DNA of 60,442 bases from a virus. Positions 3,026 to 60,442 of the stretch are shown one piece after another. The stretch lies in the IMG/VR virus record IMGVR_UViG_3300035158_000136, positions 1-60,442 of that record. One strand, written 5' to 3'. The position numbers and the translations under genes are program-made. Position 1 is the stretch's first letter; the number at the start of each line of letters is the position of its first letter. Below the pieces are notes generated by a model that was not told the DNA's origin, searched no databases, and was given only the letters and a program-made list of their open reading frames with translations.

Positions 3026-3060
3026 CCGATACTCCGGGACGTGCCGATTCTGCGGGATAG

Positions 3061-3102
3061 AAGAATCGTGAGTCTTGCATCAAGATTCACGATTCTTTTT
3101 TT
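3061..3102 (+). terminator. Rho-independent terminator
   Basis: AAGAATCGTGA at 3061-3071 pairs perfectly over 11 bp with 3087-3097, followed by a T-run. It separates the left-end unit from the structural operon. Confidence 0.8.
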
Positions 3103-3201
3103 ATTTACTACACGTAGCACGTGTAGTGATTATATAACATATGCGGGGCGTGTCGATCGTAGGGCTTATCCATATCTAACGATAAGAAGGATCGTAGCAT
3201 C

Positions 3202-3351
3202 ATGCGTTACCATCGGTATAACCGTCAGAATAATGAATACCGATACCATACTCAAGATCAGTAGATCCGCGATTCCCGATACAGGTGGGTTAATCGTTAC
3301 AGACCAAGTTACCGCTACAACTATAAAACCACGTATCCCTATCGTGTCTGA
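3202..3351 (+). CDS. Tyr/Arg-rich small ORF with internal amber codon
   Basis: Starting at ATG 3202 (AAGAAGG upstream) the frame reads 20 residues, meets TAG at 3262-3264, then continues 28 more codons to TGA at 3349. Both halves have the same unusual composition (RYHRYNR before; RYRWVNRYRP after), which neither neighbouring frame shows. The simplest reading is one gene with an in-frame amber codon, either a nonsense mutation or readthrough. Function unknown. Confidence 0.35.
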
Positions 3352-3489
3352 TGGACGTCAAAATTTTTCAAAGGTCGAAGCATCGTGAATCTTAGATCAT
3401 TGAGTATAAAATCAATTCAAGCCTCATGAATCACATAGCGAATAGGGGAGGGAGGGTTTTTCGCAATCTACCAAAAAGGTACCGGACCT

Positions 3490-3621
3490 AAGATTCATGA
3501 TACCGAATCTCGGCAAACTTTATTTTCTGCGCAACATTTAGTCATTTCTGGGCTATAATAAGGTAGAAGGTGTCTAGAGGGTAGCGACAGAAACTTGCCG
3601 AGATTTGGTATCATGGAACTT
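3490..3621. repeat. Long inverted repeat flanking promoter P1
   Basis: The arm at 3490-3520 and the arm at 3592-3621 are near reverse complements over about 30 bp, with CATGATACC and AATCTCGGCAA blocks shared. They enclose the promoter at 3529-3559, and the right arm covers the start codon at 3613. A transcript could fold so that the start is occluded, or a dimeric regulator could bridge the arms. Confidence 0.8.
3529..3559 (+). promoter_or_regulatory. Promoter P1 (structural operon)
   Basis: TTTTCTGCGCAACA is followed by GGGCTATAATA, with the TATAAT -10 at 3554-3559. The same two blocks occur at P2 (37433-37472, leftward) and P3 (37729-37768), which makes this a phage promoter family. The -35 is not canonical, so an activator or extended contacts are likely. 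Confidence 0.75.
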
Positions 3622-4173
3622 GAACGCTGGAAGCATACAGACGGCATCAATGCCCGTTGTGATTTTAATCTCAATGACGGGCAAAGGTGTGGCAACAAGG
3701 CCGCACCCGGCGTTTCCAGATGCCCACTGCACGGAGCCAACAAGCAACAAGCCGCGCAAGAGAACCGAAGCAAACGCCAATACCGGCTTGCAAAATTTCA
3801 ACAGCGCGTTAACGAGTTCGCGGACCATGACCGCCTAAAATATTTGAACGAAGAAATTGGTATCTTAAGGCTCCTTCTTGAGGAGCGTTTGAACGCGTGC
3901 GAAGACTCACATTCAATGATTTTACAATCAGGTCCGATCACGGACCTTGTTGTAAAAATCGAAAAACTTGTGGCGTCGTGCCACAAGTTAGAGTCTCAAC
4001 TTGGCGGTCTATTAAGTAAAGCGCAGATCAAGAATATTGCAGCGAATTGTATGCAAGCGGTTGCGGACGCTGTTGGCGTATTTGCAGAAGAGCAACAACT
4101 AAGTGATGAGCAAGTGGGCAACCTACTCGAAAAGGTAGCCCAAGGTATCCTCGAACACACAGGAGAACTCTAA
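3613..4173 (+). CDS. Putative terminase small subunit-like zinc protein
   Basis: A 186-residue protein. The N-terminus carries a Cys/His cluster (C-x-F-N...GQRCGNKA...CPLHGANK) seen in small DNA-binding phage proteins encoded near terminase genes. The rest is helical with coiled-coil character (about residues 50-110) and a C-terminal helical segment. As first gene of the structural operon behind P1 it fits a packaging small subunit, but TerL lies 5 kb downstream and no definitive motif is seen. ATG 3613 is preferred over TTG 3595. The next gene overlaps it as TAATG. Confidence 0.5.
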   Translation: MELERWKHTDGINARCDFNLNDGQRCGNKAAPGVSRCPLHGANKQQAAQENRSKRQYRLAKFQQRVNEFADHDRLKYLNEEIGILRLLLEERLNACEDSHSMILQSGPITDLVVKIEKLVASCHKLESQLGGLLSKAQIKNIAANCMQAVADAVGVFAEEQQLSDEQVGNLLEKVAQGILEHTGEL

Positions 4174-6524: not shown

Positions 6525-7145
6525 ATGCGATCTATTTTTCTCGCGATGCTGCTACTTGTGGCCTTTCCGGCGTATGCAGCAGACGCACCGACCCCAGCCG
6601 TTGCTGATATCGTGTTGGAAGCCCCTGAAACGGGCTCAATTGGTGAACTGATCAGGCTAGACGCGACCAAAAGCAAGTCTGAGGAGTTAGTTTGGGACAT
6701 CGATCCTGAGACATCAGACTTTGAGGCCGTCGGCAAGCGTGCTTTTCTGTCTTCTCGAACGCCTGGACGCTACCTTGTTCTGATCGCGGGCGTTGCGAAT
6801 GGCAAACCGGTACTCAAGAAGCACGAGGTTGTCATCGAAGGTGCTACGCCGACCGGTCTTGATTCTAAAATCAAATCCTGGCTTGGTCAGGTCCGGTCAG
6901 AAAATGGTAAACAGGAGGCCCTCCAGTTAGCAAGCACCTTTCGAGCCCTTGCAAATGCCGAAATTGCACCAGACAAGATGCTCGAAGCCACCGCAAGGGC
7001 GACCAATCAGACGCTTGGTGACTCGCTTGAGGCGTGGAAACCGTTTTTAGACAGCCTTGGTGCATATTTAGATGCTGCTGAGATCACGGATTACCCAGCC
7101 ACGTATCGAGCAATCGCCGATGCCATCGAGAAGGCAATAAAATGA
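6525..7145 (+). CDS. Exported PKD-like protein
   Basis: A 206-residue protein with a clear Sec signal peptide (MRSIFLAMLLLVAFPAYA, cleavage before AD). Residues 25-105 look like a PKD/Ig-type beta sandwich (GELIRLDAT...LVWDIDP...PGRYLVLIAG). The remainder is helical. It starts an exported-protein cassette (6525-8961) inside the structural operon. A one-mismatch dyad lies within it at 6860-6873. Role unknown; a periplasmic or cell-surface function during late infection is likely. Confidence 0.6.
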   Translation: MRSIFLAMLLLVAFPAYAADAPTPAVADIVLEAPETGSIGELIRLDATKSKSEELVWDIDPETSDFEAVGKRAFLSSRTPGRYLVLIAGVANGKPVLKKHEVVIEGATPTGLDSKIKSWLGQVRSENGKQEALQLASTFRALANAEIAPDKMLEATARATNQTLGDSLEAWKPFLDSLGAYLDAAEITDYPATYRAIADAIEKAIK

Positions 7146-37382: not shown

Positions 37383-37432
37383 AGAACTCAAATCAGTGTT
37401 TTATGTGTTTAGATAGAATGGTTGTCTAGACT

Positions 37433-37472
37433 ATTATAGCCCAGTTTACACGAATTGTTGCGCAGAATTTTA
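37433..37472 (-). promoter_or_regulatory. Promoter P2 (leftward, primase operon)
   Basis: Read on the minus strand it gives TAAAATTCTGCGCAACAATTCG followed by GGGCTATAATA, -10 at 37438-37433. Same element as P1 and P3. Confidence 0.75.
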
Positions 37473-37500
37473 AGTCCTTTGATAATAACAACTTACGTCG
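37471..37500. repeat. Stem-loop repeat copy 4
   Basis: TAAG/CTTA stem around TCCTTTGATAATAACAA, one base pair of the conserved loop changed. Its left arm overlaps the 22-bp inverted repeat of P2. Confidence 0.7.
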
Positions 37501-37601
37501 AATTACAGGTTACATATTTTCTGTATTGCCCGTATGCTTTCAACTCAACTCAATAAAATATATAGCAGTAAGTGGCGCGACATAACCTGTAACTTTGCAC
37601 C

Positions 37602-37632
37602 TAAGTCCTTTGATAGCAACAACTTACGACGT
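37602..37632. repeat. Stem-loop repeat copy 5
   Basis: TAAG-loop-CTTACGACGT with the same 17-nt loop; the left stem arm is shorter than in copy 6. Confidence 0.75.
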
Positions 37633-37660
37633 AACTAAAAACACTAGTCAATTTAACAGG

Positions 37661-37695
37661 CGACGTAAGTCCTTTGATAGCAACAACTTACGACG
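37661..37695. repeat. Stem-loop repeat copy 6
   Basis: CGACGTAAG, the 17-nt loop, then CTTACGACG. The stem matches copy 2 closely. It begins 59 bp after copy 5 and lies 34 bp before the P3 element. Confidence 0.85.
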
Positions 37696-37728
37696 ATTCT
37701 TCGCGTTCGTGTATATAATATAATTGAA

Positions 37729-37768
37729 TAAAATTCTGCGCAACAATTCGCGATTTTCGGGCTATAAT
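37729..37768 (+). promoter_or_regulatory. Promoter P3 (rightward early block)
   Basis: TAAAATTCTGCGCAACAATTCG then GGGCTATAATA, with TATAAT at 37763-37768. It drives the ParB-like gene at 37907. Its 22-bp upstream half is the exact inverse of that in P2. Confidence 0.8.
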
Positions 37769-37830
37769 AGAGTAGCGGGAGGATTTCCATTCAGATGGAA
37801 TTCTGAGTTGAGTTTTTGAAACCGGCAACT

Positions 37831-44551: not shown

Positions 44552-44624
44552 GGGGCGTTAGTGTAGCGGTTAGCACACGGGGCCTTCAACACCGTATCAG
44601 TGGGTTCAAATCCCCTACGCCCCA
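44552..44624 (+). tRNA. tRNA-Glu(TTC) with unusual C33
   Basis: A full cloverleaf. GGGGCGT pairs with ACGCCCC. D-arm GTGT/GCAC has loop AGCGGTTA. Anticodon stem CGGGG/CACCG has one G-A mismatch and loop CCTTCAA, giving anticodon TTC at 34-36. Variable loop TATCA. T-arm GTGGG/CCCCT with TTCAAAT has one mismatch. Discriminator A, no encoded CCA. Position 33 is C instead of the near-universal U. The 3' end can also pair with 44634-44640. Confidence 0.75.
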
Positions 44625-44641
44625 CTTGGTCCAAAGTGGGT

Positions 44642-44706
44642 GGGAGTGTCGTCTAACGGTAGGACATCACCCAGGTGAAAATGCTGGTTCAATTCCAGTC
44701 ACTCCG
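44642..44706 (+). ncRNA. tRNA-Gln-like RNA with deleted anticodon loop
   Basis: Acceptor GGGAGTG/CACTCC, positions 8-9 TC, D-arm GTCT/GGAC with AACGGTA and T-arm GCTGG/CCAGT with TTCAATT are all tRNA-like. The 5' half closely follows tRNA-Gln (GTGTCGTCTAACGGTAGGACA). The anticodon arm is TCACC-CA-GGTGA, a 5-bp stem with a 2-nt loop where 7 nt are expected, so no anticodon remains. It cannot decode. It may be a decoy, primer or processing signal. Confidence 0.65.
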
Positions 44707-44732
44707 CGACCCACATTTTGAGGTTAAAATCA

Positions 44733-53792: not shown

Positions 53793-53995
53793 CTATTGAG
53801 TGGTCGCCGATTGACAGTGCTGCGGAAGCGGAAGGTTGGGCTTTGAAACGTGCGTTCAAAATCAAACGACCTCAGAAAGCGCGCGGACCATCGAACAGAA
53901 GCCCACTGGCTCGCGACTATCGTTACAGCCCCAAGCGTAGGAGAGGGCCTGATTTATTGGAATTGTTGAATGTGATCGACGGGAGACCAACATGA
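53789..53995 (+). CDS. Small basic protein
   Basis: A 68-residue protein (EWSPIDSAAEAEGWALKRAFKIKRPQKARG), overlapping the mini ParB stop and the next gene start. A one-mismatch dyad lies at 53851-53864. It has a Lys/Arg-rich middle. Confidence 0.45.
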   Translation: MTIEWSPIDSAAEAEGWALKRAFKIKRPQKARGPSNRSPLARDYRYSPKRRRGPDLLELLNVIDGRPT

Positions 53996-54546
53996 GACTG
54001 CCGCCAAGGATTAAGAAGTCACGGCTCCCCACCGTGACTGAAGCTGTCAAGAGAGGAGACCCCGCGGCAATAAATGAAATGATCGAAGGACACATGCGAC
54101 TTGCAATGTCCGTAGTGAAACGGTGTAGAAACCGGTCAGAACTATGTTCGGTTGCCTTGTTCGCTGTAGTCAAAGCAGTTCATTACATTGCTGAGGGCAA
54201 ACTCACACACGACAGCCCAGACGCCTACATCGCAACCTTCATACACAGAGATGTGAGGAGGGCACAGAGGAGACAGGAGTACATTTCTGATAAGGATGGT
54301 TCACCGTATCTTCACTTTGACTTGCACGAGGATGACGCTGCTGGTTATACTCAGCACACGGCGGTCACAGTTGAAGAAACGGTCAATGCTATCACAGAGG
54401 ATAGAACTGACCGGGAAATAGTGGACTTGCTACAAACCGGTCACAGCGTAACTGAGATTGGACACCGTTTGGCCCTTCACAAGGGCAACATTTTCCGAAG
54501 AATCGCTGCCATTCGTAAGCGCTACAGGAGACTTGAGAATGAGTGA
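53992..54546 (+). CDS. Sigma-70-like transcription factor
   Basis: A 184-residue protein. Residues about 25-70 (MIEGHMRLAMSVVKRCRNRS...LFAVVKAVHYIAEGK) resemble sigma region 2. Residues 140-182 (REIVDLLQTGHSVTEIGHRLALHKGNIFRRIAAIRKRY) resemble region 4 HTH. It could direct host RNA polymerase to a phage promoter class such as P1-P3, whose -35 differs from consensus (inference). Confidence 0.65.
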   Translation: MRLPPRIKKSRLPTVTEAVKRGDPAAINEMIEGHMRLAMSVVKRCRNRSELCSVALFAVVKAVHYIAEGKLTHDSPDAYIATFIHRDVRRAQRRQEYISDKDGSPYLHFDLHEDDAAGYTQHTAVTVEETVNAITEDRTDREIVDLLQTGHSVTEIGHRLALHKGNIFRRIAAIRKRYRRLENE

Positions 54547-60237: not shown

Positions 60238-60442
60238 TGCTCAGGCACCGCCGGACTCAAAATCAAAGCTACCAAATGGGGTAGCAATCGCGATCGGTCA
60301 CACTTGCAAAAGTGTTACGGATAGTATCGAACACGACGGCAAGCAAACCGATTTCACGATCCACGAAGCCGTGATGAAGGCGCTTGATGCAGGTTACAAG
60401 GCGACGGAGATCGACATAGCTGCGAAAACGCAGGTTGGGTAT
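60215..60442 (+). CDS. Partial protein at right edge, possible amidase-like
   Basis: The frame runs off the window after 76 residues. It begins MGLPTDISAQAPPDS, then GVAIAIGHTCKS (possible IGH of amidase_3-type enzymes) and DFTIHEAVMKAL. If the molecule is circular, the frame stays open into base 1 for about 46 codons. The amidase idea is weak. The start overlaps the previous gene by 23 bp. Confidence 0.35.
   Translation, partial: MGLPTDISAQAPPDSKSKLPNGVAIAIGHTCKSVTDSIEHDGKQTDFTIHEAVMKALDAGYKATEIDIAAKTQVGY

Follow-up and report, generated by a model that had tools for sequence, protein, structure and literature searches.

The stretch of DNA analyzed here, which we call the window, comprises the 60,442 bases of one virus record. 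Downstream of the repeat described below it encodes a terminase large subunit and a portal protein, and a ParB-like protein is encoded at 692. Pfam matches indicate that the window also encodes a DNA polymerase A, a UvrD-type helicase, two more ParB-like proteins, and a protein with a match to ECF sigma factors (53992-54546; PF07638, E 1.1e-4), which is a candidate regulator of the phage promoters. Rfam gave two tRNA matches for the window and nothing else; within 44552-44707, one is a tRNA-Glu gene, and the second was not in the ARAGORN output. At 1822-2622, a truncated sulfatase gene (PF00884, profile positions 178-301) lies between the two copies of an exact 29-bp direct repeat, as if this segment were inserted host DNA, and a small Tyr/Arg-rich reading frame with one in-frame TAG lies at 3202-3351. 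The contig G008 of the same virus extends beyond the window end at 60442 by 10,739 bases that do not match the window start; the window is therefore shorter than the full genome.

The first gene of the operon (3613-4173, + strand) encodes a product of 186 aa with Cys and His residues near its N-terminus that are conserved among homologues, followed beyond residue 41 by a body predicted to be helical. It weakly matches phrog_3678, a PHROGs family of unknown function that was matched in 8 of the 12 members, and Pfam gave weak matches only for the first gene family. A single-sequence search found no homologues, a tblastn search of annotated phages gave none, the best match by sequence to a solved structure had an E value of 0.083, and fold searches returned no match at E 0.001.

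An inverted-repeat search placed two arms of 27 nt each at 3490-3516 and 3595-3621, with 78 nt between them and 24 of the 27 positions complementary (89%). The right arm, on the + strand, covers the start codon of the first gene (3613-3615), and the left arm is an inverted copy of the right-arm site, lying on the − strand. When the left segment alone was shuffled, none of 500 shuffles reached the observed repeat score; the inverted repeat is real and not due to chance. The earlier note had described a 30-bp inverted repeat with near-perfect arms, the right one including the ATG at 3613; the repeat, the high complementarity, and the enclosed start codon were all borne out, and the length is 27 nt instead of 30. 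Of the three positions that are noncomplementary as DNA, two would be G.U and one A.A in + strand RNA. The left-arm sequence has no third copy within 3 mismatches in the 60,442-base window (100 shuffles expect 0.00), and a genome scan found no further copy of the arm site within 5 mismatches there. Two further contigs from this virus cover only 4286-26986 (99.8% match to the window) and 27026-60442 (99.9%), which leaves the repeat supported by a single assembly.

Between the arms lies a putative promoter, P1, on the + strand, with a −35 hexamer GCAACA (3531-3536), a spacer of 17 nt, and a −10 hexamer TATAAT (3554-3559), from which transcription would start near 3566. P1 was absent from the output of a generic sigma-70 scan because its −35 hexamer is poor by consensus, and a promoter-like pair as good as P1 arose in 9 of 100 shuffles of the loop. 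The case for P1 being real is its conservation, with related elements both in the window and upstream of the homologous gene in two relatives, L018 and L019. A self-comparison of the window found one such element of 51 nt, 75% alike, at 37425-37475 (− strand) and another, 81% identical over 42 nt, at 37734-37775 (+ strand), and the relatives each have one core GCGCAAC with a TATAAT-like hexamer. The earlier note had called P1 a structural promoter, which is plausible by position, given the genes for the terminase large subunit and the portal protein that follow it. Upstream of the repeat, a terminator scan detected a hairpin resembling an intrinsic terminator at 3059-3099 (+ strand). Six copies of a hairpin-forming unit with the core ACGTAAGTCCTTTGATAGCAACAACTTACG occur at 274-434 and 37457-37696, three before a ParB-like gene and three between two divergent P1-like promoters, possibly constituting a ParB-like or replication site.

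The position of P1 bears directly on whether the repeat may act as a repressing RNA hairpin, as had been proposed. The left arm lies upstream of the presumed P1 start, so P1 RNA should begin between the arms and the hairpin is impossible on the P1 transcript itself; this form of the proposal was rejected. What stands is a predicted hairpin on read-through RNA from upstream, in which transcripts carrying both arms would hide the start codon, while P1 transcripts, devoid of the left arm, would be translated. We regard such a lock as possible but doubtful. Folding predictions for the window are in line with it: RNA with both arms had a z score of −6.8 and enclosed the ATG in a stem in which 23 continuous pairs and 4 further pairs are separated by one mismatch, and the same stem was predicted within a longer RNA (3104-3660). 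RNA from 3566, on the other hand, was predicted to be unusually open (z +1.6), with 198 of 200 shuffles folding at least as well. The window start was predicted to pair with upstream sequence with a probability of 1.00, versus 0.22 when the upstream segment was shuffled (0 of 100 shuffles as high). Among the 19 loci given this start-pairing test, L019 reached 0.72 (2 of 100 shuffles as high) and L029 a weaker 0.34 (12 of 100), and the signal was less marked in L029, L023, L032, and L077 (7 to 12 of 100 shuffles). A start codon held in the stem of the long RNA only was predicted for the window, but not for L018 or L028, whose starts showed no such predicted pairing with upstream sequence. In addition, the terminator-like hairpin at 3059-3099 would leave little read-through for such a lock to act on.

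To ask whether the arrangement recurs, homologues of the first gene were collected without regard to the repeat, giving at least 252 loci with a usable start, and 103 loci among the matches listed were kept after dropping those with less than 150 nt upstream or sharing a 40-mer. G.U and A.C were weighted equally in the scoring of the repeat across loci, and the start-codon rule misassigned some loci, such as L129 and L082, which were given an in-frame TTG. Among these matches, the repeat was found upstream of the first-gene homologue in 19 of the 103 distinct loci at the 1% level and in 31 at the 5% level, and in 12 of the 103 its score was reached by none of 500 shuffles. Control starts, namely, homologues of the terminase gene, the portal gene, and the gene at 7142, gave 4 of 249 at the 1% level and 14 of 249 at the 5% level (Fisher p 6e-8 for 19/103 versus 4/249). 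An earlier locus set gave 17 of 91 and 29 of 91 at the two levels, and a version of the test based on RNA energy gave 13 of 91 and 20 of 91. The remaining 84 of the 103 loci, again among the matches listed, had no repeat at the 1% level; nor did L018, which has the most similar terminase among the relatives holding the region, and these results rule out the repeat as a universal feature. Two distant homologues from genome contigs (L175 and L176) were also without it, and a search of viral contigs with the arm pattern found none. Its recurrence at homologues of one gene, even in some distantly related phages, makes the arrangement a probable control site.

The right arm has a recognizable core, TTGnCRR, present in 20 of the 103 loci compared with a mean of 3.8 and a maximum of 8 in 50 shuffled sets. 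When loci were picked by this right-hand core only (20/103), their own arm pairs scored 27.6 versus 18.2 for crossed pairs, and none of 20,000 permutations was as good. The own pair ranked first in 6 of these 20 loci, and several, including L018, showed no pair. The arms co-vary in the less conserved columns too (own 0.66 versus crossed 0.41; 0 of 5,000), an effect to which a shifted subgroup made up of the window and L018 contributes. In ten loci with GGAATC/GGTATC-type arms, mismatches made up 27 of 80 in the 8 less conserved columns versus 24 of 140 in the 14 others (p 0.0075), with the right arms picked by hand, L018 and L129 hardly pairing, and one column supplying 7 of the 24; this concentration of mismatches speaks for DNA binding sites. 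Co-variation in the less conserved columns is as pairing or template switching would give, and it counts against a pair of operators. Template switching copies and inverts short sequences, and it makes the arms of one genome match each other. A palindrome arising in this way could be a neutral by-product whose arms have no function as a pair, and short inverted repeats are indeed abundant in the noncoding stretch upstream of P1, both in the window and in L018 and L019. Against such an origin stand both the recurrence at the first gene relative to the control starts and the excess of the right-arm core over shuffled sets, and we consider it quite unlikely.

Other repeated motifs were observed in the window. 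A ATCRTGAATCTT-like motif in alternating orientation has 8 matches within 1 mismatch versus 0.84 expected, 4 of them in 3065-3501, and a related repeat, ATCGTGAGTCTTG, is frequent in L018 (1-630). Across the whole window, TTTGAACTCA occurs 42 times within 1 mismatch versus 6.6 expected, 18 of these exact (e.g., at 635, 7966, 37341, 37373, and 52430). The palindrome TGAnTTnnAAnTCA occurs 15 times in the window versus 0.0 in 10 shuffles, and 5, 4, and 4 times in G009, G010, and G025, with hardly any in the other 11 genomes scanned. This pattern looks like a dispersed binding site.

Since selection for pairing in mRNA should favor G.U, the balance of mismatch types across relatives bears on an RNA-level action. 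In 24 arm cores, some of which are weak pairs, G.U was found 15 times and A.C 18 times (p 0.73), with the window itself at 2 versus 0; this lack of a G.U excess counts against mRNA pairing, and selection on such pairing across the relatives was not detected. The placement of the arms varied. Twelve of the 21 strong pairs have loops of 74-86 nt, and the right-arm ends in those 12 range from +9 to −23 of the start, so the pair can shift relative to the start codon, as paired DNA sites could. The clustering of loop lengths (12/21) compared with equally strong shuffled pairs (4/16; p 0.09) is only suggestive. Several relatives whose pairs are strong (L155, L147, L120, and L144) have the right arm adjoining the start, as an RNA lock would have it, but the arm ends 8-23 nt before the start in L019, L102, L145, L150, L138, and L029. 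In the first five of these, a Shine-Dalgarno-like match of 4-5 nt follows the arm or sits at its edge. Such a match is missing from 8 of 18 loci (the window, L018, L155, L147, L120, L144, L223, and L029), the first gene of the window having no Shine-Dalgarno match of 4 or more, and is present in L148, L032, L028, and L163 although the arm reaches the start.

We also scanned 15 loops for promoters. The best sigma-70-like pair had a mean score, out of 12, of 7.5 on the + strand and 7.5 on the − strand, versus 6.1 in shuffles, and scores of at least 8 of 12 were reached in 8 of the 15 on the + strand and 6 of the 15 on the − strand. A promoter between the arms is plausible on these scores beyond the window and L019. 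The sequence GTAG at offset 46-55 was noticed post hoc in 8 of the 15 loops. By eye, the dyad centre meets the −10 only in the window, and the idea that both arms are leaders of divergent promoters was rejected. A promoter bracketed by inverted repeats is the usual hallmark of invertible switches, in which inversion of the enclosed segment by a recombinase switches the operon, and the scan left the orientation unsettled, with the + strand better in 6 loops, the − strand in 4, and the two equal in 5. However, in L018 and L019 as in the window the P1 element is directed toward the gene, no recombinase family was found among the 20 window proteins scanned with Pfam, and the arms are imperfect; an invertible promoter is very improbable here.

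A scan of 12 genomes found a third copy of the arm site in G010 (1 mismatch in 20), partial copies in G011 at 4 and 5 mismatches, one copy each at 4 mismatches in G012 and G015, and three at 4 mismatches in G020, whose shuffle had one at 3. None of the extra copies inspected adjoins an obvious start codon.

Whether the repeat acts as DNA, RNA, or both, the comparative data lean toward paired DNA binding sites. The earlier note had offered a double binding site as its other option, and the comparisons fit this putative arrangement somewhat better than an RNA hairpin; in the window, two like sites do flank a promoter. The pair of arms, the promoter element that they enclose in the window and L019, and the recurrence and co-variation of the pair in relatives are established; protein binding, repression, and timing as the purpose are what we infer from them. 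The explanation we favor, with slightly less than even confidence, is that the repeat would be two asymmetric recognition sites, each about 20-24 bp long and inverted relative to the other, with one immediately preceding the −35 and its partner in the P1 leader, and that a phage or host regulator would bind both and control P1. Its simplest action would be to keep the structural operon shut, by bridging or as a roadblock, until late in infection. In this genome, with its ATG inside the right arm and no Shine-Dalgarno match of 4 or more, read-through RNA may additionally be locked by the hairpin. Counting against an operator pair are the absence of a further site copy in the window, the 84 loci without the repeat at the 1% level, the lack of a repeat in L018, and the fact that both transitions in the window are G.U. 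The scan of the 15 loops, with its equal mean promoter scores on the two strands, also made an operator pair slightly less likely and an invertible promoter slightly more so.

Several known systems resemble parts of this arrangement. The E. coli gal operators OE (−60.5) and OI (+53.5) are described as 113 bp apart and acting with GalR, each a 16-bp site for one GalR dimer (PMC4693257). The likeness lies in two copies of one site, about 100 bp from each other, that bracket a promoter, the first preceding the −35 and the second following the transcription start, whereas the arms here are asymmetric and mutually inverted and their binding protein is putative. Published accounts of T4 gene e, soc, 49, and I-TevI describe inhibitory hairpins with an internal late promoter and, for I-TevI, both an operator at the late promoter and an RNA hairpin (PMC3014915, PMC2988022). 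In those cases, as would hold here, transcripts from the internal promoter lack the upstream strand of the stem, and the start codon or ribosome site lies in the stem; unlike there, the stem has 27 nt and the loop 78 nt, and the relatives give no sign of selection for mRNA pairing. A literature search, judged by title, found no paper on this arrangement. Fold-back inhibition of read-through RNA is also a property of the IS10/IS50 transposase genes, where, as here, an inverted sequence near the start would silence read-through RNA, but the locus has no transposase or element ends. Invertons likewise have inverted repeats flanking a promoter, as P1 does, but no recombinase (among the 20 window proteins scanned) or second orientation was seen.

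The two levels may also be combined in one pair, with a bridged DNA operator around the promoter and RNA fold-back silencing leaks from upstream, which we judge unlikely. If this were true, phages of the group would retain the RNA layer or give it up according to whether the start codon had slid into the right arm or out of it. The repeat offers a clean case for telling DNA-level from RNA-level action of one inverted repeat, and a recurrent feature, open to simple tests, through which to study the possible timing of structural genes in a large group of uncultured tailed phages.
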